Assembly: GCA_015501585.1 (NCBI GenBank)
Contig: JADNRY010000297.1
Location: 1 to 64,000 of the forward strand
Source: Rhodocollybia butyracea
Taxonomy: Eukaryota; Basidiomycota; Agaricomycetes; Agaricales; Omphalotaceae
DNA length: 64,000 bases
Direction of reading: 5' to 3'
Shown here: positions 1 to 28,310 of the stretch, in pieces
Layout of the letters: each line of letters begins with the position of its first letter
How positions within the stretch are numbered: the first letter of the stretch is position 1
The notes under the pieces: generated by a model
What the model was told of the DNA's origin: nothing
Seen by the model: only the letters and a program-made list of their open reading frames with translations
Database searches by the model: none
Translations under genes and position numbers: made by a program

Positions 1-290
1 GGCATATCAGTGGACATCTCTAGTTGCAATTTCCAGCTTGGAGTAGTTGGAGTGGTTGACATTTGGGCTACTGACAGGTGTTGGACTAATTGGCCCTGTC
101 GGAGTAGTTCGAGTAATACAGATGGGTGAGGGAGGGGAGTTGGAGCAATTGGCCCGGTTGGAGTAATTGGAGTAGTTGACATTTGGGCTGTGGAGGGGAG
201 TCAAAGCAATTGCCCCTGTCAGAGTAATTAGGGGAGTTGGAGTAATTGGCCCTGTAGGAGTAGTTGGAGTAGTTCACAGTTGGGTACAAC
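1..290 (-). repeat. Minisatellite, inverted orientation (left block)
   Basis: This is the same 60-61 bp family as the arrays to the right, but in reverse-complement orientation (AGTAGTTGG and AATTGGCCC motifs instead of CCAACTACT and GGGCCAATT). The orientation flips near position 290, so the two blocks meet head to head. No coding function is supported. Confidence 0.85.
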
Positions 291-1110
291 TACTCCAATT
301 CCTCTGACAGGGCCAATTGCTCCACCTCCCCGCCCCAGCCCAAATGTCAACTTCTCCATTACTCCGAGAGGGCCAATCTAGTCCAACTCCCCAACTCCCC
401 TCTCCATCCCAAATGTCAACAACTCCAACTACTCCAAGAGGGCCAATTACCCAACACCCCTCAGTAGCCCAAATGTCAACCACTCCAACTACTGTGACAG
501 GGCCAAGTACTCCAACTCCCCTCACCAGGCCAAATGTCACCTACTCCAGCTACTCCGAGAGGGCCAATTACTCCAACACCCCTCAGTAGCCCAAATGTCA
601 ACCACTCCAACTACTCCAAGCTGGAATCACAACTACTCCAATTACTCCAACAGGGCCAATTGCTCTCCTCGCCAACTGTAATTACTTGAACTACTCTGAC
701 AAGGCCAATTAGTCCAACCCCCGTCTGTAGCCCAAATGTCAACCACTCCAACTACTCCAAGCTGGAAATCACAACTACTCCCAATTACTCCAACAGGGCC
801 AATTGCTCTCCCTCGCCCAACTGTAAATTACTTGAACTACTCCGACAAGGCCAATTAGTCCAACACCCCGTCTGTAGCCCAAATGTCAACCACTCCAACT
901 ACCCCAAGCTGGAAATTGCAACTACTCCAATTACTCTGAGAGTGCCAATTGCTCCAACTCCCCTCCCCAGTGCAAATGTCAACTTCTCCAATTACTCCAA
1001 GAGGGCCAATTTACTCCAACTCCCCAACTCCCCTCTCCATCCCAAATGTCAACAACTCCAACTACTCCGAGAGGGCCAATTACTCCCAACACCCCTTTAT
1101 GTGCATAGCT
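291..1110 (+). repeat. Pyrimidine-rich minisatellite array (block 2)
   Basis: Degenerate tandem copies of a ~60-61 bp unit are built from CTACTCCAA-like 9-mers, a GGGCCAATT core and a CCCAAATGTCAA tail. Unit length varies by about 9 bp where a subrepeat is gained or lost. The array ends near 1110, where ordinary AT-rich sequence begins. Confidence 0.85.
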
Positions 1111-1504
1111 CAAGTAAATAAGTTATAGCGCTGTAATTAAATGCCAGGCATGGTCACTGACAAATAAACTTGATCGCGTATTCCTTTCTTAGTAGTATTA
1201 CCACTCATTAATCATTACTTGCTTGTATTTCTTTTGTTTATTTCATGGCCCACCACATCGCAGAGAGTGTGTCATCATATCTTCTTTGAAGCGTCTTGAG
1301 AAAGTATTTCCGGTGGCTGTGCTATTGCCCGCATTTATATAACTAGGACAGAAATGGACAACTAGCGCTTGAACTTGCAACACTTGGGCAAAAAATCACC
1401 TGATATTACCAGTAACTGGGGTGAAGATCATTTTGGTCGTAAAATTTTAACAGTTACGAACATGAAAGAACAAAGGTGACTAACATAAAACATGCTGTTT
1501 CACT
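1111..1504. other. Intergenic, no gene seen
   Basis: Ordinary AT-rich sequence between the minisatellite and a solo LTR-like fragment. Nothing coding or structured is recognised. Confidence 0.5.
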
Positions 1505-1938
1505 GGCTGACAAAGGTCTGTGCAACCTAGGCTGGAATGGAAGCGGAAGCCGATGTAGGGCCGAAAGGCAGGATCAGGATCGTGGGAATGATATCCGGAA
1601 TAGACTACAAGGCCAAGGAAACGGTGGGACTTCGGTGAAGCTATTAGCAACACCCCCAACACACCACCAAGGTTGTCCCAGAAGGAAAGGAAGTAAAGTG
1701 CAAGAAATCACCGAGGTATGAGCGTGAGAATGGTCCGAGATATGTCCGAGGTAAGGACCGAGCCGAGTCGGCCGGTATCGGACAGAACAGTGAGTATAAG
1801 GAACAAAGAAAGAACTTAAAGGAAAGCTCAGAAAAGTGTGCAATAATGGGTATAGCTTGATTACTCATGTAACTCGTGATTTTTGGCTGAGGAATGATAG
1901 TACAATGTACCTAGCTTATATACAAGTGACCTAATTGT
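1505..1938 (-). mobile_element. LTR-like fragment, copy A (inverted relative to copy B)
   Basis: The reverse complement of this stretch matches 19996-20442 almost throughout, ~430 bp with scattered substitutions. Read on the minus strand it begins with a TATATAAGCTAGG box and runs through repeated TCGG-containing words to a shared end near TTGCAC/GACCTT. That layout fits the R-U5 part of an LTR. The sequence at 1939-2427 keeps the same TCGG-rich style and may be the U3 part of the same solo LTR, but copy B does not contain it. No terminal TG/CA pair or target duplication could be fixed. Confidence 0.6.
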
Positions 1939-3470
1939 TAAATAAAGACAATAAAGTCGGACCAAGGTAATGCCAAGGCCGGAACGAGGTGGAATCAATA
2001 CAAATGATAAAACAATAAGCAATAGAGTAGAAAAGACAAAAGAGATGAACGTCGGCGCACTGCGGACCGCCGTGGGAAAGTAATGAGTACCGAAGGAGTC
2101 CGCCGATATATCGGGCCGAAGGTATGGCCGATAAAGGCGTCGGAAATGTGAGTGCCGGAGTAGGAGTGAATTTGTGAAGTCCAAAGGTATATCGGAAGGG
2201 ATAAAATAGAGAATGGAGTTTCGGAGCTGCCAGAGGTTGTGGGAACTATTGGAGCCATGAGAGACCGTGAGAGAGGGTGAGGGAGTCTCGGAGAGTCTCG
2301 GAATGAGTCGGAACATCTCGGAATAATGATGGAAAGGCATGAACGTAACACTGGCGCCATTTGGTCCGAAAAAGAATATCAATCTTGATTCCTTTTTTGG
2401 TGGAAATTGGACTAATCTACCAGGCAAAATTCAACCTTTTTTTCCAGCGAGATATAGATTAGATTACCTCAAGTTTTTTGGGCGAGATTATAGATGAAAA
2501 ATCTTATCTTTTAAGATTGGTTTTTTGATTGAAATGTTATTATTTTTTTTTTGGGCAAAAAAATATATTATTTATACAACGTTTTTTGCAACTAGTTTCG
2601 GCCTTTTTTTATCGAAACCTGCGGAGTGACTATGCTTTGAGGATCTTTTTTCCACATGTAACATCTTTACATGAAATTTTCACCCAATTTAGTAATGCAA
2701 AATAAAATTCCATTATGATTTAAGCCTAGTTACCTCATACAAAGTATTACAACTAACAGTACTAAAGTATAATAATACAGCAAAATGTAACTCAAACTAT
2801 AGAGTAGCCATAGATAAACATAGATGTAGCGAGTAGTAAAGTGGAGGCAGTGGCAGTGGCGGATGCGAAAATTGCGTCGTTGGGGTGAGCAAAAATAGCG
2901 GTCCATAGACGTAGATAAAGTTGGATGTAGCGAGTGGGCAGCAGCAGCGGCAGATACAAAAATAGCATCATCAGACAAAGACAGCGGTCCATAGGCGCTG
3001 CTCTGGCTTTGATTGGAACAGGAAAAATACAATATAGGTACATATCACATACCAGGTGTCCAATCAAAGAGCCAACTTACTTGTTCACCACAATGGATAG
3101 AAAGTGTGTCGAAGGAAAAACTTCAAGTATGTAAATACTCAACGAATGTCATGGCCAGTGGTGAGAAACATACCAGCATGCAAGAACATCATTGCTAACT
3201 ACTTTGAGGTCCTTCTAAAAGCATGTCAAAGGAAGAATTAAAATAATCAACTGTAAGAACATACCAAAGTCCAACAGTATTGTCACTAACTATTTTGAGG
3301 TTCTTCACAACATAAGACAGAAGTGAGACTGGAGCAGTGGAGAAGAGCTGTCAGGATGGGTGGGAGAACGAAACAAGCAGAAACAGGTGCCTGGCAAAGT
3401 TTTAAACGTGTCCATCACAAGATCTGTTTCTCTTAAGGGCAGGGTCAGCTTGGCCTTTCAATTTTTGCAA
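1939..3470. other. AT-rich intergenic region with small degenerate tandem repeats
   Basis: T-tract-rich sequence around 2430-2700 is followed by two short tandem duplications. The first, about 2811-2908 and 2909-2996, has ~90 bp copies sharing GATGTAGCGAGT and GCGGTCCATAG. The second, about 3168-3223 and 3258-3312, has copies sharing TTTGAGGT and CTTC. An inverted palindrome TGGCGCCA lies at ~2355. No credible gene is seen. Confidence 0.45.
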
Positions 3471-6165
3471 CCACTCCAACTACTCACCCAGGGCCAATTC
3501 CTCCAACTTCCCTCACCAGGCCAAATGTCAACTACTCCAACTACTCTGGCAGGGCCAATGATTCCAACTCCCGTCACCAGGTCAAATGTCATCCAATTCT
3601 AACTACTCCAACAGGGCCAGTACTACTTCAAGACGGCCAATTACTCCAACTCCTCAGCCCAACTACTTCAAGCAGGCCAATTACTCCAACTCCCCTCAGT
3701 GGCCCAAATGGCAACTACTCCAATTCCCCTCAGTAGTCTAAATGGCAACTACTCCAAGTGGGCCAATTACTCCAACACCCCTAAGTAGCCCAAATGGCAA
3801 CTACTCCAATTCCTCTGACAGGGCCAATTGCTCCAACTCCCCTCAGTAGCCCAAATGTCAATCACTCCAACTACTCCCACAGGGCCAAGTACTCCAACTC
3901 CCCTCACCAGGCTAAATGGCAACCCCTCCAACTACTCCAACAGGGCCAATTATTCCAACTCCCCTCACCAGGCTAAATGGCAACTACTCCAACTACTCCA
4001 AGGCCCAATTACTCCAACCCCCCTCCTCAGCCCCAATGCAAGCTACTCCAACTACTCCAACAGGGCCAATTACTCCAACTCCCCTCAGTAGCCCAAATGT
4101 CAACCACTCCCACTACTCCGAGAGGGCCAATTACTCCAACTCCCCTCAGTAGTCTAAATGGCAACTACTCCAAGTGGGCCAATTACTCCAACACCCCTAA
4201 GTAGCCCAAATGGCAACTACTCCAATTCCTCTGACAGGGCCAATTGCTCCAACTCCCCTCAGTAGCCCAAATGTCAATCACTCCAACTACTCCCACAGGG
4301 CCAAGTACTCCAACTCCCCTCACCAGGCTAAATGGCAACCCCTCCAACTACTCCAACAGGGCCAATTATTCCAACTCCCCTCACCAGGCTAAATGGCAAC
4401 TACTCCAACTACTCCAAGGCCCAATTACTCCAACCCCCCTCCTCAGCCCCAATGCAAGCTACTCCAACTACTCCAAGGCCCAATTACTCCAACCCCCCTC
4501 CTCAGCCCCAATGCAAGCTACTCCAACTACTCCAACAGGGCCAATTACTCCAACTCCCCTCAGTAGCCCAAATGTCAACCACTCCCACTACTCCGAGAGG
4601 GCCAATTACTCCAACTCCCCTCAGTAGTCTAAATGGCAACTACTCCAAGTGGGCCAATTACTCCAACACCCTTCAGTAGCCCAAATGGCAACTACTCCAA
4701 TTCCTCTGACAGGGCCAATTGCTCCAACTCCCCTCAGTAGCCCAAATGTCAATCACTCCAACTACTCCCACAGGGCCAAAATGTCAACTACTCCGACTAC
4801 TCTGACAGGGCCAATTACTCCAACCCCCCTCCCCAGCCCAAATGTCAATCACTCCAACTAATCTGAGACACCCAATTACTCCAACTCCCCTCACCAGGGT
4901 AAATGGCAACTACTCCAACTACTCCAACCCCCCTCCTCAGCCCAAATGCCAACTACTCCAACTACTCCAACTCCCCAGTACAAATGTCAACTACTCTAAC
5001 TACTGCGAGTGGGCCAATTACTCCAACTCCCATCAGTAGCTTAAATGGCAACTACTCCAAGTGGGCCAATTACTCCAACACCCGTCAGTAGCCCCAATGG
5101 CAACTACTCCAGCACCCCTCAGTAGCCCAAATTGCAACTACTCCAATTCCTCCAACAGGGCCAATTACTCCAACTCCCCTCCCCAGCCCAAATGTCAACT
5201 ACTCCAACTACTCCGACAGGGCCAATTACTCCAACTACTCAAACTACTCCAGCACCCCTCAGTAGCCCAAATTGCAACTACTCCAATTGCTCCAACTCCT
5301 CTCTCCAGCTCAAATGTCAACTACTCCAACTACTCCGAGAGGGCCAATTACTCCAACTCCCCTCAGTAGCCTAAATGGCAACTACTCCAACTACTCCAAT
5401 TACTCCAATTACTTCAACAGGGCCAATTGCTCCAACTCCCCTCCCCAGCCCAAATGTCAACTACTCCAACTACTCCAACAGGGCCAATTACTCCAACTCC
5501 CCTCAGTAGCCTAAATGGCAACTACTCCAACTACTCCAACTACTCCAGCACCCCTCAGTAGCCCAAATTGCAACTACCCAATTCCTCCAACAGGGCCAAT
5601 TGCTCCAACTCCCCTCCCCAGCCCAAAAGTCAACTACTCCAACTACTCCAAGCTGGAAATCGCAACTACTCCAATTACTCCAACAGGGCCAATTGCTCCA
5701 ACTCCCCTCCCTTGCCCAACTGTAATTACTCAAACTACTCTGACAGGGCCAATTAGTCCAACACCCGTCAGTAGCCCAAATGTCAACCACTCCAACTACT
5801 CCAAGCTGAAAATTGCAACTACTCCAATTACTCCGAGAGGGCCAATTGCTCAGATGCCAACTACTCCAACTACTCCAACAGGGCCAATTACTCCAACTCC
5901 GCTCACCAGGCCAAATGTCAACCACTCCAACTACTCCAACAGGGCCCATCATTCCAACTCCCCTCACCAGGCCAAATGTCAACTACTCCAACCCCCCTCC
6001 TCAGCCCAAATGCCAACTACTCCAAACTACTCCAACAGGGCCAATTACTCCCTTCTCCCCAGCCCCAATGACAACTACCTCAACTACTCCCACATTGCCA
6101 ATTACTCCAACTCCAGTCCCACACCCAAATACCAACTGCTCCAACTTCTCTGACAGCATCAATTA
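3471..6165 (+). repeat. Large 60-61 bp minisatellite array (block 3)
   Basis: About 2.7 kb of tandem units contain CTACTCCAACTACTCC, AGGGCCAATTACTCC and AGTAGCCCAAATGTCAA. Successive GGG cores sit 61 bp apart at 4063/4124 and 5158/5219. The unit has no stop codon in any plus frame, and 61 is not a multiple of three. Long open frames therefore cycle through Thr/Pro-, Asn/Tyr/Ser- and Gln/Leu-rich peptides. Those open frames are a consequence of the repeat and do not by themselves show a gene. Confidence 0.9.
3794..4690 (+). repeat. 416 bp higher-order tandem duplication inside the minisatellite
   Basis: Sequence from 3794 recurs from 4210 with essentially identical order of variant units, a shift of 416 bp. 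A third, shorter start is visible near 4683. Variant-unit order is preserved, so this is a segmental duplication laid over the basic repeat. Confidence 0.75.
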
Positions 6166-11958: not shown

Positions 11959-12456
11959 TGTTGAGTGTATATAGTGATAGAACACTTACTGCTTACATAA
12001 GCGATGTCCCACGCTCATATTCCGTCTCTAAACTATGTACTTTTATAGTAATCTTTCGTTACCATGTTGATATCTGCTCTAGTTTACTTTTTGGCTTTCA
12101 TTTGTTCAGTTTGCAAGATATTTTCTCAGTTTGAGTGGTGACTGTTGAAAATATCTATGCGCGCACAATTGTGGACACCCATTTTCACGCCTCATGCGTT
12201 TCAGTACAAATAGAACCAAATAACTACCTATTCCTTACTTAGTTAGAAAGAGTCCAAATCAATATTCACATATCTTTGATTCAGTTCATTGTTTGCTGTC
12301 TATTGGAGTACTGAGGAACTATAAGGCTATTAGTACAACACTATAGTCATTATACTGAGCATAACAACGCTGTACTAAGACGGGTATCACACTGCTTGGG
12401 TTAGCTGAAGGGCGCTCCAGTGTGTTTAACTTCAACAAGTGCAGTTTCCTCCAACA
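11959..12456 (+). repeat. 5' LTR of the copia element
   Basis: 498 bp, TGTTGAG...CCAACA. It contains GTATATAGTG shortly after the start as a possible TATA-like element. Compared with the 3' LTR it carries an extra 20 bp near 12111-12130, next to CAGTTTG. Confidence 0.95.
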
Positions 12457-12470
12457 GGTTATGGGCCCCG
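12457..12470 (+). promoter_or_regulatory. Primer-binding site (tRNA-iMet anticodon-loop type)
   Basis: Immediately after the 5' LTR the sequence reads GGTTATGGGCCCC. This is complementary to the conserved anticodon stem-loop of eukaryotic initiator tRNA-Met (GGGCCCATAACC). Some copia elements are known to prime from an internal half of initiator tRNA rather than its 3' end; that priming mode is inferred here from sequence complementarity. Confidence 0.7.
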
Positions 12471-12608
12471 TGTTCTAACTGTGCATTTCGTTGTTGTGTT
12501 CTTGTTACCTCTTTACTTGTGCGCTCCTCAATAGTTCTATACTATTGTTGTCTTTCTACACTATCAATTGGCTCAGTTGGCTTGTTGGCTCAGTTGGCTA
12601 TTATCACT

Positions 12609-15600
12609 ATGTCTTTCACTTCTACCACTTCCAACCCATCTTTCAAAGTTCTTACCAAGGACAACTACAATGATTGGGTTGGTAATATGAAGGCATCTCT
12701 GATGTCTCAAGGTTTATGGAGACTAGTATCTGGCAAAGAGGCTAAGCCCTCAGATCCAGCTCTGTTGGACAAGTGGGAAATTAAAGCTGAAAAGGCTGCT
12801 GGCTTGATTTTTCTTGCTGTCAGCTCGCCTCAGCAGGTGCCTATTAAGGCATACCAAGAGGATCCCATTGCTATGTGGAGCATTCTAGAGAAACAGCATG
12901 TGTCAAAGAAGCCTGGTGCTAGGTTTAATGCCTACAATGCACTTTTCACTATCACAAAGCTGGCTGATGAATCTCTCATGGACATGGCCTCTAGAGTGGA
13001 AGCTGCTATGGCTGACATTCAAAATCTTCGACCCACTGTTGCTCCTATTGTCTCTGGATCCACTGGCTTCACACTGGACTCACTTGACTCTGAGCTTCAA
13101 TCTATGGCTCTCATTCGTGCACTCCCTGAGGAGTATAAACATCTATCATCCAACCTGCTTATGCAAGACAATCTTGACAAAGACATGATTCTTGCTGCTT
13201 TCCTTGCTGAACAGCAGAATCAAGCTCATGCTGAGCAGTCTGTCAATCGAGCGCAAGCAGCACAGTCTGCACAACAGAAGAAAAAGGGTGGCAATAGTAG
13301 ATATCCCCCTGTTAGGAATGGAGATCCTAAAAACTTCTGCAGCCATTGTGGGGCAAAGGCGCTCCACTGGCCTGAGGATTGTCCTAACAATCCTTACAAC
13401 AAGAAAAAAGGCATCAAGGCCAATAAGGCCAAGGTTACAGAGGTGGAGGAATCTGAAGGAATGTCGGAAAATGCTGGCTCTGCTAGTGCAAGTACTCTTA
13501 ATGGACTATCTTCTTCACATTTTGCTGATACTTTGGAATGGAATACAGACACAGGCGCCACTTCTCATATGACACCTCATAAACACTGGATTCGAAACTA
13601 CACTCCTCACAGAGTGCCTATTCGTCTTGCAGATCATAATGTAGTGTATTCAGAGGGGATGGGCGACGTTTTATTTACTCCTATTGTTGATGGCAAAGAA
13701 GTTAGACAAGTTTTATTTTCTCGAGTTTTACATGTACCGGCTCTTAATAACAATCTCCTCTCAGTTCTTTACTTGACCAAGCATAAAGGTTTTACTGTAC
13801 AAATTCTTAGAGATACTATGGAGTTCTCACTTAATGGTTCTGTCCTGTTCACTGCGTCAGTTAATAATAAATCGGTTGGTTACCTTAATGGACACACTAT
13901 TAGTACAGTAGCTGAGTTTGCAAACGTCGGTTCAACTCTACCTCTTGACCTTGAGCTGTGGCATCGACGCTTCTTTCACTACAATCTGAGTGATGTTAGC
14001 AAGCTGTCTAGAAATGGTATGGTTGAGGGCTTTAAACTCGATTCTAGTGCAAAGCCAGACCCAGTATGTGAACCATGTCTTGGTGGAAAGATGCATGCCA
14101 ATCCCTTTCCTAGTAGCGATACTCGTGCTGGTGAAGTTCTTGAACTTGTTCATATGGATGTACATGATACTGGTGTTGTTTCGCCTTCTGGCTACCGCTA
14201 TTGGATCCCCTTTATATGCGACAAATCACGCTTCAGAGCAGTTGCACTACTCAAAAAGAAGAGTGAAGCATTTGGTGCATTCAAGCAGTTTAAGGCCTGG
14301 GCGGAAAACTCTACTGGTAAAAAGATCAAGGTGATCCGTCATGACAAAGGTGGTGAGTTTATATCCAAAGAAATGGAACAGTTCTTGAAAGATGAGGGGA
14401 TTGAGGTGCAGAGAACAGCCCGGAATCGACCCCAGCAGAATGGAGTTGCTGAACGGCTTAACCGGACATTGGCTGAATTACTGACTGCTATGCTACTGGA
14501 ATCGGGTTTACCAAAGACATTTTGGGCTGAATGCCTGGCTGCGCTTGTTTATGTGCTTAATCGATGCCCAACGTCTGCTGTCCCAGGTGTCACTCCTTTT
14601 GAAGTCTGGTATAAAGTCAAGCCAAAGGTTGACAACTTGTGTGTCTGGGGATGCATTGCGTATATTCATGTTCAAAAGGACAAGCGGCCACATTTTGGTT
14701 CACACATGGAAAAGTGTGTGTTCATTGGGTATCCTGAGGGAGTTAAAGGCTGGAAGTTCTGGAATCCGGTCACTAAAAAGGTCATTATTAGCAAACGTGC
14801 AGAATTTGATGAAAGATTCATGTATGGATCCAAGTCACCTAATCAGCCTACCCTTTGTCGAGACTACATTCCTGTGACTCCTCCGGAACCATCTGCTACT
14901 CCCAATCCATCTAGTACCTCTAATGATCTATTCACACCTCCTGCTTTTTCTGATGAATCGGACTCTGAACCCGCCTCTTCTGATGAAGATGATGTGCCTC
15001 CCCTTAATGCACCTCCTGCTCTTGCTCCCACCCCAGAACCCAAAATACCTGTGACTGACGAGGATGAATCTGATGAGCAACCCATTGCTGTACGTCGCCC
15101 TGCGCGTGCTCGTAAACCTCCTGGTAGATGGTGGGAAGTCAAACCTGCTTCTAAGGGCAATGCCCATAATGAGTCTGATGAATACAATGGAGATGTAGAG
15201 GAACATGGACATGCTGCTAACGGTGTAGAACCTCGAAATTATCGAGACGCTATGCGCAGTCCAGAAGCCTTTAAGTGGGAAGAAGCAATGGACGATGAGA
15301 TTGCTGCTCATCTGGCTAATCAGACTTGGGAAATTGTTGACTTGCCACCAGGAGAGAAAGCTATTGGGTCGACTTGGGTATACCGTATTAAGCACAAGGC
15401 TGATGGCTCTATTGAACGCTTCAAAGCACGCTTGTGTGCTCAAGGCTTCAGCCAAAGACCTGGATTCGACTATCTCGAAACCTATGCTTCAACTCTCCGC
15501 TGGTCCTCATTACGCATTGTACTTGCTCTTGCTGCTATTGATGATATGGAGCTTCGCTCTGTTGACATCTCACATGCGTTTATTAATTCTGACATTGACA

Positions 15601-16805
15601 CAACTATCTACATGAGACAGCCCGAGGGTTTCAAGCAAGGTGGACCAGAGAAAGTTTGCAGGCTAAACAAGTCCCTATATGGGTTAAAGCAGTCGCCCCG
15701 TCTTTGGAGTGAGAAACTCTGTGGTGTGTTAGCCAAGTTGGGCTTCAACCGCCTGGAGTCTGATCCATGTGTTTATCTATTTAAACGCGGTAACCTTAAA
15801 GTGATTGTTCCAGTTTGGGTAGACGATATCACTCTTGCTTGTAAAGACTCTGGTGTTATAGATCAATTTGTCCATGATCTAGAGAAAGAACTTAAACTCC
15901 GTGACTTGGGCAGTACCGACTTCTTACTTGGCATGGGAATCAGACGAGACCGCCAGAACCGAAAACTATATCTTAATGCCCGGCAATACATCCTCCGTAA
16001 ACTCGATGAATTTGGCATGACTGATTCCAAGCCTGTGCGCACTCCCATGAATCCCACTGTGACACTCTCTAAAGCGGACTGCCCCCAAACACCAGAGGAG
16101 AAAGAAGAGATGATCAATGTCCCCTACATGTCGGCTGTTGGCTCCCTATTGTTTCTGGCCATGATCCTTCGTGTCGACACAGCTTATGCATGTGGTGTCT
16201 TGACTCGTTTCAACTCTAATCCTGGATACGCTCATTGGATTGCTGTTAAGCATTTGTGGCGTTACTTGAAAGGATCTCTTGACTATGAGTTGGAACTAGG
16301 GCCAGATCCTGATGCCCCCGATCTGATCACAGCTATTGGTGATGCTGACTTGGGTGGCAACAAAGACAATGGGAAGTCAACAACTGGATACATCATAAAG
16401 GTTGGATCAGGTGCTGTTAGCTGGAGTAGTAAACTACAACCTGTGGTTACTCTATCCTCTACTGAAGCCGAGTTTGTGGCTTCAAATGCGGTGGGCAAAG
16501 AAGTGTTGGCAATACGTTCTCTTCTCAATGAGCTTGGGTATAAAGTCGCTTCTCCTACCATTATCCACACCGACAACCAATCATCCATTCAGGTTGCTAA
16601 AAACCCTGAACATCACGGCCGAATGAAGTATCTTGACAGGACTTTCTACTGGCTCAGAGAACAAGTTGTACATGGGAAGCTTACACTCTCATATTTGCCC
16701 ACTGAGGATAATCCGGCCGACCTGCTCACAAAGGCCCTTGCCAAACCAAAGGTGGAAAAGTTCCGATCTTTGATTGGACTTGTGAAGCCAAACCTTCCTA
16801 GTTGA
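12609..16805 (+). CDS. Copia gag-pol polyprotein
   Basis: The start is placed at the ATG at 12609 (MSFTSTTS), because the open frame to its left overlaps the LTR and PBS; this gives ~1398 residues. Order of domains: a UBN2-like gag; a zinc knuckle near residue 244 with spacing C-x2-C-x5-H-x4-C (one residue longer than usual); an aspartic protease DTGA near 314; a GAG-pre-integrase with LWHRRFFH. The integrase has D near 517, D near 579 and E near 615, the last two in D-x35-E spacing. The reverse transcriptase has VDDI near 1072. RNase H has GDADLGG, SSTEAEF and HTDNQS. PR-IN-RT-RH order is diagnostic of Pseudoviridae/Ty1-copia. No internal stop or frameshift is seen, and the frame ends with TGA just before the polypurine region. 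Confidence 0.97.
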   Translation: MSFTSTTSNPSFKVLTKDNYNDWVGNMKASLMSQGLWRLVSGKEAKPSDPALLDKWEIKAEKAAGLIFLAVSSPQQVPIKAYQEDPIAMWSILEKQHVSKKPGARFNAYNALFTITKLADESLMDMASRVEAAMADIQNLRPTVAPIVSGSTGFTLDSLDSELQSMALIRALPEEYKHLSSNLLMQDNLDKDMILAAFLAEQQNQAHAEQSVNRAQAAQSAQQKKKGGNSRYPPVRNGDPKNFCSHCGAKALHWPEDCPNNPYNKKKGIKANKAKVTEVEESEGMSENAGSASASTLNGLSSSHFADTLEWNTDTGATSHMTPHKHWIRNYTPHRVPIRLADHNVVYSEGMGDVLFTPIVDGKEVRQVLFSRVLHVPALNNNLLSVLYLTKHKGFTVQILRDTMEFSLNGSVLFTASVNNKSVGYLNGHTISTVAEFANVGSTLPLDLELWHRRFFHYNLSDVSKLSRNGMVEGFKLDSSAKPDPVCEPCLGGKMHANPFPSSDTRAGEVLELVHMDVHDTGVVSPSGYRYWIPFICDKSRFRAVALLKKKSEAFGAFKQFKAWAENSTGKKIKVIRHDKGGEFISKEMEQFLKDEGIEVQRTARNRPQQNGVAERLNRTLAELLTAMLLESGLPKTFWAECLAALVYVLNRCPTSAVPGVTPFEVWYKVKPKVDNLCVWGCIAYIHVQKDKRPHFGSHMEKCVFIGYPEGVKGWKFWNPVTKKVIISKRAEFDERFMYGSKSPNQPTLCRDYIPVTPPEPSATPNPSSTSNDLFTPPAFSDESDSEPASSDEDDVPPLNAPPALAPTPEPKIPVTDEDESDEQPIAVRRPARARKPPGRWWEVKPASKGNAHNESDEYNGDVEEHGHAANGVEPRNYRDAMRSPEAFKWEEAMDDEIAAHLANQTWEIVDLPPGEKAIGSTWVYRIKHKADGSIERFKARLCAQGFSQRPGFDYLETYASTLRWSSLRIVLALAAIDDMELRSVDISHAFINSDIDTTIYMRQPEGFKQGGPEKVCRLNKSLYGLKQSPRLWSEKLCGVLAKLGFNRLESDPCVYLFKRGNLKVIVPVWVDDITLACKDSGVIDQFVHDLEKELKLRDLGSTDFLLGMGIRRDRQNRKLYLNARQYILRKLDEFGMTDSKPVRTPMNPTVTLSKADCPQTPEEKEEMINVPYMSAVGSLLFLAMILRVDTAYACGVLTRFNSNPGYAHWIAVKHLWRYLKGSLDYELELGPDPDAPDLITAIGDADLGGNKDNGKSTTGYIIKVGSGAVSWSSKLQPVVTLSSTEAEFVASNAVGKEVLAIRSLLNELGYKVASPTIIHTDNQSSIQVAKNPEHHGRMKYLDRTFYWLREQVVHGKLTLSYLPTEDNPADLLTKALAKPKVEKFRSLIGLVKPNLPS

Positions 16806-20442: not shown

Positions 20443-20889
20443 AGCATTTTGAGCTGGTGACCATGAAGCAACAAGATAACTGAATGCCTCTTGGCACAAC
20501 ACACAAGGGCCTTGTCAAGAGCGTCAAACACATACATTTTCTTCCACTGACTGAGACTCTAACAGTGTAAAAGTTGCCAGAGAAGCAAGATAGCATGTGA
20601 GTGCAGTATTCTCTAAAGGCAAAGCAGCTGGAATAGGTTCAGGATTCCCCAAAGGCAAAACAATCAAGATAGGTTCAGGGTACATAGTACATGACTACTG
20701 TTATGACCCGGATCTAAATCCTATACACCCAATCTTTTTTCTTCTGTAACCAACTATGAACACTATCATTAATACTTCTACTTAACATTTTACATTCATT
20801 AGTTATTCAACACCATTTGGGTTAATGCTGCACACATTCTTCCAGAACACCAGAATGATCTTTAACAGTCACTGCACAGTCTGCACAGT

Positions 20890-21175
20890 CATGACATCAT
20901 TCTAGCTCCACAACTATGATGTCATCTTGCTACTCCACAATCATGATGTCATTCCATTGCTCCGCAGTTATGATATCACATCACTGCTCCACAGCTATGA
21001 CATCATTGCATAGCCTCTTTACATCAATGACTCAATATCAGTCATTGCACAGCCAGATATCTGAGTCAACTACGGTTCCGCATACATGACTCAATATTAG
21101 TCATTGCACAGCAGTACATAGTCAGACTGACTCATCCGCAGTATTTCCGCAGTTATGACTCAAATCTAGTCATTC
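20890..21175 (+). promoter_or_regulatory. Cluster of bZIP-type palindromes in LTR U3
   Basis: ATGACATCAT or ATGATGTCAT (CRE-like) occurs at 20891, 20916, 20943 and 20997. TGACTCA or TGAGTCA (AP-1/Gcn4-like) occurs at about 21027, 21062, 21087, 21128 and 21156. Three of the latter are halves of longer inverted repeats, ATGACT-7 nt-AGTCAT, at 21026-21046, 21086-21104 and 21155-21173. The 3' LTR has the same set. Binding by a Gcn4/ATF-like factor is inferred from motif identity only. Confidence 0.6.
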
Positions 21176-21208
21176 CGCAGCATTTCCTAACTAGTACACA
21201 TTGCACAG

Positions 21209-21216
21209 TATATAAG
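21209..21216 (+). promoter_or_regulatory. TATA box of the gag-only element LTR
   Basis: TATATAAG lies about 110 bp upstream of the hairpin array. The TRIM-like element (TATATAAGTACC) and the copy A/B LTR fragment (TATATAAGCTAGG) have similar boxes. Confidence 0.6.
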
Positions 21217-21317
21217 TAGTCTAGATTTACCAATGTACGTAGACGTATTATTTTTTCTTAAATCCAAACCCCCACTTGTTTGCTGTTATCACTTGTGTGA
21301 ATCACCAGACCAACTCA

Positions 21318-21762
21318 TTGTATATTGTTGAGCTATCTCCAAGTTACAATACACATTTATACATCTTGTTGAGCTAACTCCAAGTTGTATCCACTAACAT
21401 TCACCTGTTGAGCTATCTCCTAGTGAATACTTCTTTAATTGCCACTTGTTGAGCTATCTCCGAGTTGCAACTTCCTATTACTTGTTGAGCTATCTCCAAG
21501 TATTAGACATCACACTCACTATTACTTGTTGAGCTATCTCCGAGTACTAGACACCACACTCACTATTACTTGTTGAGCTATCTCCAAGTACTAGACACCA
21601 CACTCACTATTACTTGTTGAGCTATCTCCGAGTACTAGACACCACACTCACTACTACTTGTTGAGCCATCTCCGAGTATTAGTTCTGATTCATATTACTG
21701 CTTGTCGAGCCATCTCCAAGGGTAATCTTATTATTATTTGTCGAGCTATCTCCAAATAATAA
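21318..21762 (+). repeat. Array of 11 covarying hairpins (constant loop, variable stems), 5' LTR
   Basis: Each unit has the loop TTGAGCTATCTC (variants TTGAGCTAACTC, TTGAGCCATCTC, TCGAGCCATCTC, TCGAGCTATCTC) between two ~10 nt arms that pair. Units lie at 21318-21349, 21359-21390, 21399-21428, 21439-21470, 21475-21506, 21519-21550, 21563-21594, 21607-21638, 21651-21682, 21694-21726 and 21731-21762. Arm pairs differ yet stay complementary: TTGTA/TACAA, ATACA/TGTAT, ATTCAC/GTGAAT, TTGC/GCAA, TACTTG/CAAGTA, ATTAC/GTAAT, TTATTATTTG/CAAATAATAA. Where the 3' arm starts CGAG instead of CAAG the pair becomes a U-G wobble. The array lies downstream of the TATA box, so it should be in the transcript leader. 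Confidence 0.85.
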
Positions 21763-21984
21763 CTTCTGTGAGTTTTGCATTACAAACTAGTTACTAACTT
21801 TACTTGAGCCTAGTTGTTTGAGTATATATTTTTTGCCTAGCGATTTCAACGAACAGAAAGGCTTGCGCTATAATCTCATTAATTTCTCTTATCATTTTTA
21901 CTGCCAAGTTACGTACTGTGAAGGTTTGGACGAGACTATTGATCGAGTCATAACATAATAATACGTCTCCACCCGCCCCCATGA

Positions 21985-24210
21985 ATGTCTACACAAACAA
22001 CTAGATCATACACCCAGATTGGGTCTCACCAATTTGTTCAAGGATCTAATATCCCCACCTTTCCAATTGGTTTTAATGCTCCAGGATATACACTGGGACA
22101 ACACAATACTAATGTTGGAAATACAAACCGGGGGTCACCCACTACTATTTCAAATGGTGAATTTGTAGTAATGCAGAGAATTCACATTGGATCAAAGGGT
22201 TCAAATTTAACGGAAACTGTGGTTCAAGAAGTTAGAATGCCACCTACTGCACAAATTGCACAGATATTTGCTTGTCATGATGACCGTTCCACCAGTCATT
22301 TAGTTGATAATGGTTCGCGAGGACAACAGCAGCAAATGCCTAATTTTGTAGCAAGTGCACCTCTACCTTTTTTACATCATAGCCATTCTGCACAATTTGA
22401 TACACACAAATCTCAAAGTGGAGAATCTACACGGCAAAGCAGGAACATTGTTCAGTTCTCAGAACCAGAACAAAGTCCTTCACTTACCTACCACTCATCA
22501 TCTGCACCAGCAATTACTAGAGCCAAACAGGCAACTGGGAGTACAACAACTAATGGCCAAATGTCTTCTGTACTATCAAGTCAAAGACAAATTGAACCTA
22601 TTAGAAGATCTCCATTGTCTTTAGTCCCTGAGGAAGGGCAAGAGCATTCCATGACTCATAGTAATCCACATCATAAATCTCTCTCTCACCATTCTCAGTC
22701 AGATCACAGTGCTGGAAGTGTTGTTAGGAGTTTAAATCACTCACAAGGGCATGAACAAGCACCTGTTCAATTGCAAGGTTTACAGCCAACTATATCTGCT
22801 CAGAATCATCCATTACCAAGTGGATCTTTCCAAAGTTCAGTAAAACAAGGCTCATACAAGTCAAACAATACTGTACCAGTTCTGAACCAGTTTCAAAATG
22901 AACAAATACAATTTGACAGACTCAGCCAGCAATGCCAAATATTTTTGGAGTCATTAGGCTATAGAAGCAGTAATGCTCAGCCATGGCAATGGATCCAACA
23001 GTTGACAAGACTAGGTCATAGAGAACTTGCATCATTAAGCCCAAACCTGTATCAAAGGATGTCAGAAGAAAGAAATACTCAAATTCTAACACACCTATAC
23101 ACTGAGATACAAAGGGATGAGGTTCAAGCTCTACTGAGGGCAAGGAGTAATATGAGTGTTGAATTAGCACCTTCTCTTCATACAAGCCAATGAGCCAAAG
23201 GACAGGAAAATGCACAAGAAAATGCACAAAGTGCTCACACACCTGTACAAAACACAGGAAATGTGGTAGAAACTCATCCTCAACACAGTGTAGAGGAATC
23301 TAGGGCTCACTCACCAAGCCCTCAGATTGTCAACAGGCTATCTATGTTACAACCTGTGATGCACATGTCGTCAGCACCAGATCCTGTTGAAAAAGTGGAG
23401 CAAGGAACAAGGAATGACAACCAAGTTATTCACTCTGCAACTCTACCTCAACATGATGAATTAGCACATACTGGTAGTAGTCAGGCGCTACTTGATCGAG
23501 GGCAAAGAAATGCCAGCCTTATGAGCAGAAAACAAAATTTTGTAATGTCTACAAAATCTGAACAAGCTCAAGCTACAAGTCAATGTTTATTTCTTGAAGC
23601 CCAACCAATAGATCCAACGCCACTATCTGCAGAAAATAATCATGTTCCACAGACTCTCATTCATGAACCTTTAGGTTTGGACTGGGCTGAGCAAGCACAT
23701 GATTTTTTGCAAAGCAATAATGATTATTCTTTTGTCTCACACAAAGGCAGGACACAAAAAGTCTCAAAAGGAGCCTCACCATTGTTCCCACTAGCATATG
23801 GTCCAGAAATCGATAACTTTGTACAAAATGACTGTCATACTGCTCAAAATATGGTTTTGGATCAGGATAGCCCACCAAACAATCATACATCACAAGCTCA
23901 ACAACAGAGGGCCACCACGCTGACTCCAAGAGCTTCTAGAATGAATCAAGACAATTCTAGAAACGATAATGTTAATAAGATGTCAGTAGTACTAACCACT
24001 TGGGTCACTCCAGAGGAGTATGACCAAAGACAAGGAAAAGGAGCTTGTACTTACTGTGAAAAGATAGGCCACTTTGCCCACCACTGCCCACAACAGCATG
24101 AACATGTGTCAGGTCAAGCTGCATTTATTGAAACTTCCAGAAAAATACCCAACAACATTATAATTGAAGTTAAAGATGAAATTTGGGATATTGATGGCAC
24201 ACTCTTGTAG
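21985..24210 (+). pseudogene. Gag-like protein of the outer element, broken by a stop and a nested insertion
   Basis: The open frame starts ATG at 21985 and is rich in Ser, Gln and His. An in-frame TGA at 23191-23193 interrupts it, and the same frame then stays open to 24210. A CCHC zinc knuckle (CTYCEKIGHFAHHC, C-x2-C-x4-H-x4-C) sits near residue 688. Such knuckles bind RNA in retroelement Gag. The apparent end at 24210 is created by the nested TRIM-like LTR. The original frame resumes after the second ACTCT copy and stops at about 25874-25876. No protease or polymerase motif follows. The TGA could arise by a C-to-T change in CGA or be a sequencing error. Family assignment beyond 'gag' is not possible. 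Confidence 0.7.
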
Positions 24211-24589
24211 GAATTTGGACTGGAATATTTGCAAGTGCCTCCGTGTACGAACCTGAACTGACTCATATGGACTGGAGTCGTAATGTGTCAATATTGCATT
24301 GACTCATTTGTAGTACATAGTTACTGTGCATTGAGTCATTGACTGTGCATGACTGTGCAATGATTCTAAATGACTCATAATGACTTGCCTGGACTTATAG
24401 CAAGTCAATTCCCTTATATAGTGTAGTATACAGTTGTATAGTATATAAGTACCTAGTTTTATGGAATGAGACCCCATCGGGTTGTTGACCCAGGGCTTTA
24501 CCCATCTCTACCCTCTGGTGTGCTTTTGTCCCCACATTTGGAGGATGAGCGTAGCTTGTATTTGAGTTTTTCCCCCTTTTACAACAACA
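24206..24589 (+). repeat. 5' LTR of the TRIM-like element
   Basis: 384 bp with TGTAGG...ACAACA ends. It contains four TGACTCA/TGAGTCA sites (about 24257, 24300, 24332, 24370) and a TATATAAGTACC box near 24443. Confidence 0.9.
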
Positions 24590-25458: not shown

Positions 25459-25842
25459 TGTAGGAATTTGGACTGGAATATTTGCAAGTGCCTCCGTGTA
25501 CGAACCTGAACTGACTCATATGGACTGGAGTCGTAATGTGTCAATATTGCATTGACTCATTTGTAGTACATAGTTACTGTGCATTGAGTCATTGACTGTG
25601 CATGACTGTGCAATGATTCTAAATGACTCATAATGACTTGCCTGGACTTATAGCAAGTCAATTCCCTTATATAGTGTAGTATACAGTTGTATAGTATATA
25701 AGTACCTAGTTTTATGGAATGAGACCCCATCGGGTTGTTGACCCAGGGCTTTACCCATCTCTACCCTCTGGTGTGCTTTTGTCCCCACATTTGGAGGATG
25801 AGCGTAGCTTGTATTTGAGTTTTTCCCCCTTTTACAACAACA
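25459..25842 (+). repeat. 3' LTR of the TRIM-like element
   Basis: Same sequence as 24206-24589 by eye, followed directly by the second ACTCT target copy. Confidence 0.93.
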
Positions 25843-25876: not shown

Positions 25877-27093
25877 AAGGACATCGACCAGATAAACATC
25901 CTAGCATCTCAATAACCAGATGCTCATAGTCACAATGATTACACCCCAATAACTCTGCTTGCAACTCAAGTGGAAACATCACCAGAAATTATTTCCATGA
26001 TTTTAACCCACCTCAATACATCTATCTGCAGAGCAAAATCAATTAACAGATTTTTGCAGATTTTATCCAATATCTATGCCTCACCTTTCACCAATGATTG
26101 TAAATGAGATTATTGGTCAAATAAGCCCAATTATGCCTTGAATTATGCCATATACTCCGACTCTATAGAAAGCAATGCACCATGTATTGTGCTACTGAGA
26201 GTTCTCACCAGAAAAAACCACAAAGAATGTCAACGCTACCCCAATAATCTCTGACCAAATGCCACTAGTTATAGCAGATAGTGTGCCCAGAAACTGAAGA
26301 AAAAAACATCAGGAAATGAACAAGCTTTGAAAGACATGTAAAAGTGCTGAATGAGAAGAGGAAAGGAAGAAAGTTCTTGGACGATTTGATGAGTTTCAGA
26401 CCAACCTAAGATGAAACAGCTATATCATACCCGCTTTTTCATCTAATAATACATCTCATCAATATCGCATCAAGTCATAACTTGGTCATAAAATAATAAA
26501 ACATCTCCAATTCTCGCCACTTGGACAACTTAAATACCAGATTGGTATTAATGCTTACTGAAATGCATGGATCTGTGTCCAAGACGCAGATACTACAGTG
26601 ACAAGTTTCAAGTTCAGGAAATGAAATGTCCGAAAGTCCACTATTCCCATAAAAATCATCAATCAGACGGCACCAATTGACATCAAAGCCACCATCAAAT
26701 CACTGATATGCAAACAGCTGTATGCAATCAAGCAATCAGAAAAATTTGAAACAATCATTTTGATTGATGGACTTCCCATAAATCAGATCCATGGACATAG
26801 TACCGCCCAACATGCTGATGTACTATTGAAATCATGATGTTTATTGTCCCAGGTCTGATGCAACTAATGTGGCATGGAAAATACACCAATTACAGTAATG
26901 ACACTAACGACACTAATGTCCAATTAATGACCAATTAACAGGCCATCACATAACCACCATTTGAAGTCAGGATGCTTGAACTCATGAACATCTTTACTTG
27001 AGATGCAACTGATAGGTGCAATCCCACTAACTATGACTGGATAACCTAACTCCTATGTGGCCTCAGAGGGTTTCGGCCTTAAGGGGGGAGTAC
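25877..27093. other. Non-coding interior of the gag-only element
   Basis: No open frame of note and no polymerase motif on either strand. It ends in the AAGGGGGGAG polypurine tract next to the 3' LTR. A deleted pol region would fit, but no remnant is recognised. Confidence 0.6.
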
Positions 27094-28310
27094 TGTTATG
27101 ACCCGGATCTAAATCCTATACACCCAATCTTTTTTCTTCTGTAACCAACTATGAACACTATCATTAATACTTCTACTTATCATTTTACATTCATTAGTTA
27201 TTCAACACCATTTGGGTTAATGCTGCACACATTCTTCCAGAACACCAGAATGATCTTTAACAGTCACTGCACAGTCTGCACAGTCATGACATCATTCTAG
27301 CTCCACAACTATGATGTCATCTTGCTACTCCACAATCATGATGTCATTCCATTGCTCCGCAGTTATGATATCACATCACTGCTCCACAGCTATGACATCA
27401 TTGCATAGCCTCTTTACATCAATGACTCAATATCAGTCATTGCACAGCCAGATATCTGAGTCAACTATGGTTCCGCATACATGACTCAATATTAGTCATT
27501 GCACAGCAGTACATAGTCAGACTGACTCATCCGCAGTATTTCCGCAGTTATGACTCAAATCTAGTCATTCCGCAGCATTTCCTAACTAGTACACATTGCA
27601 CAGTATATAAGTAGTCTAGATTTACCAATGTACGGGAGACGTATTATTTTTCTTAAATCCAAACCCCCACTTGTTTGCTGTTATCACTTGTGTGAATCAC
27701 CAGACCAACTCATTGTATATTGTTGAGCTATCTCCAAGTTACAATACACATTTATACATCTTGTTGAGCTAACTCCAAGTTGTATCCACTAACATTCACC
27801 TGTTGAGCTATCTCCTAGTGAATACTTCTTTAATTGCCACTTGTTGAGCTATCTCCGAGTTGCAACTTCCTATTACTTGTTGAGCTATCTCCAAGTATTA
27901 GGCATCACACTCACTATTACTTGTTGAGCTATCTCCGAGTACTAGACACCACACTCACTATTACTTGTTGAGCTATCTCCGAGTACTAGACACCACACTC
28001 ACTACTACTTGTTGAGCCATCTCCGAGTACTAGTTCTGATTCATATTACTGCTTGTTGAGCTATCTCCGAGGGTAATCTTATTATTATTATTTGTCGAGC
28101 TATCTCCAAATAATAACTTCTGTGAGTTTCGTATTACAAACTAGTTACTAACTTTACTTGAGCCTAGTTGTTTGAGTATATATTTTTTGCCTAGCGGTTT
28201 CAACGAACAGAAAGGCTTGCTCTATAATCTCATTAATTTCTCTTATCATTTTTACTGCTGAGTTACGTACTGTGAAGGTTTGGACGAGACTATTGATCGA
28301 GTCATAACAC
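27094..28310 (+). repeat. 3' LTR of the gag-only element
   Basis: 1217 bp with the same termini as the 5' LTR. It has the U3 bZIP cluster and ten hairpin units (about 27713-28116). The hairpin near 28049-28075 has a CGAG arm and a TTGAGCTATCTC loop where the 5' LTR copy has CAAG and TCGAGCCATCTC, again keeping the pairing. Confidence 0.9.

Follow-up and report, generated by a model that had tools for sequence, protein, structure and literature searches.

A hairpin array with a kept loop and covarying stems inside the LTR of a Ty3/Gypsy-type element of Rhodocollybia butyracea

The window analyzed here is a 64,000-nucleotide stretch of Rhodocollybia butyracea DNA (contig JADNRY010000297.1, positions 1 to 64,000, forward strand). 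It includes a Ty3/Gypsy-type element whose 5′ LTR contains 11 hairpin units at 21316–21764 on the + strand. The sequence-only reading had placed the array, also with 11 units, at 21318–21762; its claim is borne out with the limits moved slightly outward, and every arm pair that it quoted is present in the sequence. The element is organized as follows.

20699..21955, + strand: 5′ LTR, TGTTATGAC...GTCATAACA; it matches the 3′ LTR, and many copies stop matching at its 3′ boundary
21209..21216, + strand: TATA box TATATAAG, identified from sequence and found in most arrays compared
~21240, + strand: border between U3 (up to this point) and R/U5 (after it)
21241..21252, + strand: predicted RNA 5′ end and self-primer AGACGTATTATT, the perfect 12-nt complement of 21957–21968
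21316..21764, + strand: hairpin array of 11 units, from sequence, folding, re-pairing and covariation
21810..21820, + strand: U5 segment CTAGTTGTTTG, complementary to 21994–22004 just after the gag ATG
21957..21968, + strand: primer binding site (PBS) AATAATACGTCT, one base after the LTR end
21985..23193, + strand: gag-like N-terminal frame, with an in-frame stop in the window copy; no Pfam family
23194..24210, + strand: the same frame past the stop, with a CCHC knuckle (ORF list)
27083..27093, + strand: polypurine tract GGGGGGAGTAC, from sequence
27094..28309, + strand: 3′ LTR, with a TATA box at 27604–27611, a self-primer at 27637–27648 and a 10-unit array at ~27711–28118

The two LTRs are 96.7% identical in their longest aligned piece (1.03 kb), and no target-site duplication is evident at the element ends. 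A pattern search located the exact LTR/PBS junction TAACATAATAATACGTC at 52 places and its one-mismatch form at 4. Within U3, the segment 21017–21189 comprises repeats containing TGACTCA, which we take to be reminiscent of bZIP sites. Elsewhere in the window are a copia-type polyprotein of 1461 aa in a single frame (12420–16805) and minisatellite stretches (40–6150) with 61-bp-type units around CAACTACTCC.

The units of the 5′ array are these.

21316..21351, + strand: unit 1, stem ATTGTA..TACAAT
21357..21392, + strand: unit 2, ATACA..TGTAT, loop variant TTGAGCTAACTC
21396..21431, + strand: unit 3, ATTCAC..GTGAAT, on its own the least stable and in another register
21437..21472, + strand: unit 4, TTGC.ACTTG..CGAGT.GCAA
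21473..21508, + strand: unit 5, CTA.TACTTG..CAAGTA.TAG
21517..21552, + strand: unit 6, near-copy of unit 5
21561..21596, + strand: unit 7, near-copy of unit 6
21605..21640, + strand: unit 8, near-copy of unit 6
21649..21684, + strand: unit 9, near-copy of unit 6, loop TTGAGCCATCTC
21693..21728, + strand: unit 10, ATTAC..GTAAT, loop TCGAGCCATCTC
21729..21764, + strand: unit 11, TTATTATTTG..CAAATAATAA, loop TCGAGCTATCTC

The 12-nt loop is TTGAGCTATCTC; the loop 13-mer TTGAGCTATCTCC is exact in 7 of the 11 units and differs by one or two bases in the other four. Stems typically consist of four inner pairs (CTTG with CAAG, CGAG or TGAG) followed by at least three outer pairs, and many stems have an internal mismatch at pairs 5–7. 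Units 5–9 are tandemly repeated with a period of 44 nt, and their arms are almost the same. Because they are near-copies, the array has 7 distinct stems and not 11, and the earlier statement that the arms differ completely between units holds for those 7 only. The array in the 3′ LTR is one unit shorter, with 10 units as compared with 11 in the 5′ LTR. With regard to pairing of the loop elsewhere in the element, all matches to its complement in the window carry three mismatches. Outside this genome, an exact 20-mer in a contig of the viral collection (L107) stands alone, with no array or tandem repeat, and was taken as a chance match.

The window units were picked by their loop and not by pairing, and they are therefore an unbiased set for a re-pairing test. 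In the 7 distinct units, the duplex energy of arms paired within their own unit is −48.4 kcal/mol as compared with a mean of −22.6 over 5,040 re-pairings, and the true pairing alone among the 5,040 permutations reaches this value; when outer pairs are counted, 2 of the 5,040 are as good as the true pairing. Covariation was scored in 10 distinct units, nine from the 5′ array and one from the 3′ array. Double-sided changes occupy 14 cells as compared with 4.8 ± 1.8 in shuffled sets, none of 500 shuffles being as high, and the covariation score is 0.391 versus 0.192 (1/500 shuffles). Sliding one arm by 1–3 columns reduces the paired cells from 82% to 34–45%. The count of further pair types in these units is not above that of the shuffles (259/500). 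The arms are thus complementary within units and covary between them, and the re-pairings and the double-sided cells confirm the proposal that stems covary within a single array. Complementarity beyond shuffled controls was established in the comparison between units; family copies are nearly identical and offer too little change for the same comparison, and their unit classes contain no double-sided change.

The leader folds better than its dinucleotide shuffles (z −4.1 with 20 shuffles; z −3.6 overall with 40), and its local folding gives z −4.8 (40 shuffles). A count of perfect hairpins of at least 7 bp does not pick out the window array (1 versus 0.89 in shuffles) because most stems hold a mismatch. 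The same count gives 6 in the leader of the relative L063 (largest shuffle, 3) and 3 in that of L064 (largest shuffle, 2); the leaders of L067 and L065 fold weakly better than shuffles (z −1.6 to −2.0). Together, the data support the array as a selected RNA structure in the 5′ leader of the element.

Variation per site was compared in 506 units from 53 distinct arrays, after identical arrays had been collapsed into one and overlapping loci, as well as arrays of one or two units, had been omitted. It is lower in loops (0.018) than in stems (0.040–0.042) or flanks (0.056) in these units, which were gathered by whole-unit similarity; a biased, loop-based filter had given 0.015 for the loop. The pattern GAG[CT][CT]A[ATC][CT]TC fits 499 of the 506 loops, the GAG and (C/T)TC ends being kept. 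Such ends might serve contacts between the loops of two RNA copies, because the core GAGCUAUCUC partly self-pairs (GAG with CUC) and the array would then be a multivalent dimerization site; hairpin loops do serve dimerization in retroviral leaders, according to the available part of one report (PMC516450). The same GAG and CUC bases, however, can also pair within their own loop, and the loops of relatives do not all keep them, so that we consider this reading quite unlikely. At least two units are chimeric, combining 5′ and 3′ arms from different units with a stem that is broken as a result, as would follow deletion between units.

Folding energy does not reveal which strand is used, because the reverse strand of the array folds as well or better (−113 versus −101 kcal/mol). 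The class assignment left out 6 of 490 units. Pair variants within unit classes comprise 23 G·U, 7 A·C and 17 other events, and 24 of these 47 (7 A·C and 17 other) break a standard pair. On the + strand, G·U exceeds A·C by 23:7 (sign test, 0.005), which fits a + strand RNA; the excess falls to 12:7, which is not significant, when the recurrent pair positions 1–2 are left out, and it is therefore support rather than proof. These observations also bear on a function at the DNA level, in which the units would work as repeated enhancers or silencers, either as palindromic sites for binding or as cruciforms. Inverted repeats are palindromic in DNA too, and the good folding of the reverse strand agrees with this, but G·U is favored on one strand (23:7, or 12:7 without the two recurrent positions), the loop as a whole is not palindromic, and the array is downstream of the predicted start and within an ATG-free leader. 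A role in DNA is accordingly very improbable, and RNA is, in all likelihood, the selected molecule.

The self-primer AGACGTATTATT begins 32 nt past the start of TATATAAG, and the lowest-energy fold of the leader closes it on the PBS. In the 3′ LTR, the 12-mer is preceded by GG, which lengthens the match to the PBS to 14. The self-primer is imperfect in some copies, such as C481 with one base changed. At the U3/R junction, different copies have different bases ahead of AGACG (GTT, GTG, AGT), and the two LTRs of the window element likewise differ there (21239–21240 and 27634–27636); untemplated addition at the RNA 5′ end may be the cause.

From the self-primer to the end of the PBS, the window leader has no ATG in 728 nt, as compared with 10.1 expected from base composition and with 3–17 occurrences of the other orders of the letters A, T and G. 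U3 has 15 ATGs, the last at 21233, and the next is at 21981/21985, at gag. Among the leaders of 16 relatives, 11 have no ATG and five have one (expected, 4.1–7.2). The absence of ATG favors both the predicted start site and a model in which ribosomes scan across the array. Because of the self-primer/PBS match and the ATG-free leader, the predicted RNA start is upstream of the array, which is very probably transcribed; the placement of the array in the 5′ leader by the sequence-only reading is thus indicated, with a start site that is itself a prediction.

A leader with no ATG would be scanned, and this would also suit a reading of the loops by a host RNA-binding protein or by the translation machinery, with effects on gag translation, stability or export. 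The stability of single units is moderate (−6.6 to −10 kcal/mol), and scanning ribosomes can probably pass hairpins of this kind. Against it, no Rfam family reaches the gathering score in the window, and we regard such a reader as rather unlikely. A separate long-range helix, 11 bp and perfect, can form between U5 (21810–21820) and the start of gag (21994–22004); its gag side is intact in L108 and altered in part in L109. Some retroviruses have U5:AUG pairing, a likeness for this helix.

Pairing of the loop with a tRNA by way of its complement ATAGCTCAA, which we take to resemble a tRNA D-arm sequence, was also weighed. The genome does have sequences such as GATAGCTCAGTTGG beyond the arrays, which might be tRNA genes, but nine matching nucleotides in a widely shared tRNA core are weak evidence, and elements that, as it appears, prime themselves have no need of a tRNA primer; we give this explanation hardly any credence.

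Related elements were sought in the genome with a piece of Gag; among the 109 of 276 candidates scored, there were close copies and families at roughly 31–54% identity. The leaders of 3 and of 20 further stretches were compared, and a self-primer/PBS pair of 10–16 nt is present in 16 of the 23 (3/3 and 13/20). The 7 of the 20 without a self-primer are L070, L077 and L080–L084, of which L077 and L083 are cut short by the end of a contig. In 12 of the 13 from the 20 that do have one, a TATA box is 33–38 nt upstream of the self-primer. The self-primers comprise five 12-mers: AGACGTATTATT in the window family, AGACTTCTTATT in group II, AGTCTCTATATT in group III, AGTCCTAATATT in group IV (one element) and AGATTTGCTATA in group V (one element). 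Each of the five covaries with its own PBS between families. One element of group II (L106) encodes an aspartic protease, RVT_1, RNase H, an integrase, SH3_Tf2-1 and Chromo over three ORFs.

The hairpins of these groups can be described as follows. (i) In group IIa (L063) there are six, with loops of the form AGC/AGT...C; their stems include ATTACTG/CAGTAAT, TACTACTG/CAGTAGTA and CTATATTG/CAATATAG. (ii) Groups IIb and IIc carry three, located at corresponding positions and with loops that differ somewhat. (iii) Groups III and IV have a hairpin resembling the CTATATTG one, GTATAG..CTATAC and GTATTG..CAATAT, with one pair broken in L065 of group III. In groups III–V, which have self-primers, the hairpin lists contain no comparable array. 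Compensatory changes are seen in the leader alignment of the relatives, from CTG..CAG to TTG..CAA and from ATACTATTG..CAATAGTAT to ATATTACTG..CAGTAGTAT. For 16 hairpins from four leaders, none of 200,000 random re-pairings is as good as the true one. For the 9 hairpins of relatives alone, two of which share arms, 12 of 362,880 permutations are as good; because these 9 were chosen as hairpins, the test is not an independent one, and the 7 window units are the unbiased set. A strict search with the loop motif, which was framed after the loops had been seen, gave no hairpin in six of eight relatives, six in one (group IIa, 0/400 shuffles) and one in another (group V, 5/400 shuffles), with no support in groups IIb, IIc, III or IV. 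Since only two of the eight are positive, homology of the loop beyond group IIa is suggestive only.

The position of the array between the self-primer and the PBS, which the lowest-energy fold closes on each other, raises the possibility that the hairpin chain mainly serves the self-priming fold, by compacting the leader and blocking other pairings, thereby helping the 5′ end to reach the PBS. At 32 nt per unit, 352 of 704 nt would be in hairpins, and the remainder is close to the whole leaders of array-free relatives (329–431 nt). A mere spacer, however, would not need a kept loop, and the gain from compaction is small (~0.75 kcal/mol by a simple loop-entropy formula). Array-free relatives also have a self-primer, and the array is therefore not needed for self-priming as such. 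Help in self-priming is plausible but weak as the sole reason for the array, and as its main purpose we think it unlikely.

In the window copy, the product of 23194–24210 matches the C-terminal third of the Gag of relatives (residues 237–367 of 376) and not the capsid part. No pol-sized frame follows gag in the ORF list, and no reverse transcriptase (RT) match lies on the window contig among the 104 of 607 candidates scored. The gag-like frame is open for ~749 codons in several other copies of the window subfamily. A 384-bp duplication, 100% identical (24206–24589 and 25459–25842), is located at or after the end of this frame. In C465, a second subfamily copy, an insertion splits a Gag that includes capsid and CCHC, and the sequence up to the 3′ array contains no pol-sized frame. 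The pol-less interior of the window copy has 23 other copies at 97–99% identity over at least 2 kb, so pol-less copies have spread, presumably using proteins of intact relatives. C481 and C591 have a 9-unit array and, in this order on a single strand, a PBS identical to that of the window, Gag matches and RT matches; they are likely autonomous partners.

TR-GAG elements are non-autonomous LTR elements. Like them, the window copy and C465 keep LTRs and a gag-like frame and show no pol, and the window copy also has a PBS and a polypurine tract but no pol-sized frame. Unlike them, it is fungal, its frame is interrupted by a stop and has no capsid match, and likely autonomous partners are in the genome. 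The Gag of L061 has Retrotrans_gag and CCHC, and the named relatives of Gag are from Dendrothele bispora and Tetrapyrgos nigripes; together with the match of a housekeeping-type gene to Moniliophthora, these point to an agaric host. The Gag frames of L063, L064 and L065 are very long (1,314–1,486 aa); no Pfam family is matched by the long region that precedes the capsid domain in L061, L063 and L065.

Self-priming leaders are already known; what seems new is a hairpin array like that of the window element. Tf1 self-primes with the first 11 bases of its own RNA (PMC7175516), Tj1 has the same arrangement (PMC4600332), and Tcn1 of Cryptococcus has been proposed to use Tf1-like self-priming (PMC7175516), as described in the accessible portions of these papers. 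The window element resembles Tf1/sushi elements in being Ty3/Gypsy with a PBS complementary to its own predicted RNA 5′ end, and one relative (L106) has a chromodomain integrase, although the window copy has no pol-sized frame. It differs in its 12-nt primer and its ~740-nt leader with an array, a feature that the accessible text on Tf1 and Tj1 does not mention. Full-text searches, judged by titles and opening abstract lines and with few subscription journals represented, gave no array of this kind in an LTR retrotransposon. The nearest functional likeness appears to be with the GACG-tetraloop leader hairpins of alpha- and gammaretroviruses, which act in packaging and perhaps in dimerization (PMC516450, available part). 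As in the window array, these leader hairpins share one conserved loop, whereas the window loop is 12 nt and not GACG and occurs in ~9–12 copies with covarying stems in a fungal retrotransposon. In Ty3, the nucleocapsid of Gag is required for RNA packaging (PMC4974528, available part); its Ty3/Gypsy Gag with one CCHC knuckle is like that described here, but Ty3 requires tRNAiMet.

We tentatively favor the array as a multivalent module of structured RNA that is read by Gag, in a self-priming Ty3/Gypsy family of the Tf1/sushi type, for packaging, dimerization and priming. The RNA would start at or near AGACGTATTATT, which would fold back on the PBS and prime reverse transcription, with ~9–12 small hairpins between the two. 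The stems would be free to take any complementary sequence; as the loop is kept while the stems vary, the loop would be the part that is read. The protein that reads the loops would most likely be the Gag of the family (capsid and CCHC nucleocapsid), the best candidate, with its capsid domain and CCHC knuckle; the Gag of Ty3, similarly, depends on its nucleocapsid for packaging. Gag bound side by side on the hairpins would mark the RNA for packaging, dimerization and priming, and ribosomes would scan the ATG-free leader to reach gag. The window subfamily, which keeps the array without pol or a capsid match, would carry a cis-acting signal served by the proteins of intact relatives. The structure of the array and where it lies are well supported; we infer Gag as the reader, packaging as the purpose and the position of the RNA start. 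With less confidence, the array could possibly be a tandemly expanded "operator" of near-identical loops on interchangeable stems, each a candidate docking site for Gag and duplicated from an ancestral hairpin, so that the RNA would be chosen by avidity and not by one complex packaging fold.

How Ty3/Gypsy elements choose the RNA that they package is poorly known. The array is a natural experiment in which the stems vary, the loop is kept and the number of units changes in whole steps; families with and without arrays share one genome, and the loop is indicated as the recognized part. The self-primer and PBS covary across five groups of elements, which makes a clear example of Tf1-type priming for an agaric fungus. 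If the operator reading is correct, the array would be, as far as is known, the first packaging or priming signal of the array type in a Ty3/Gypsy element.
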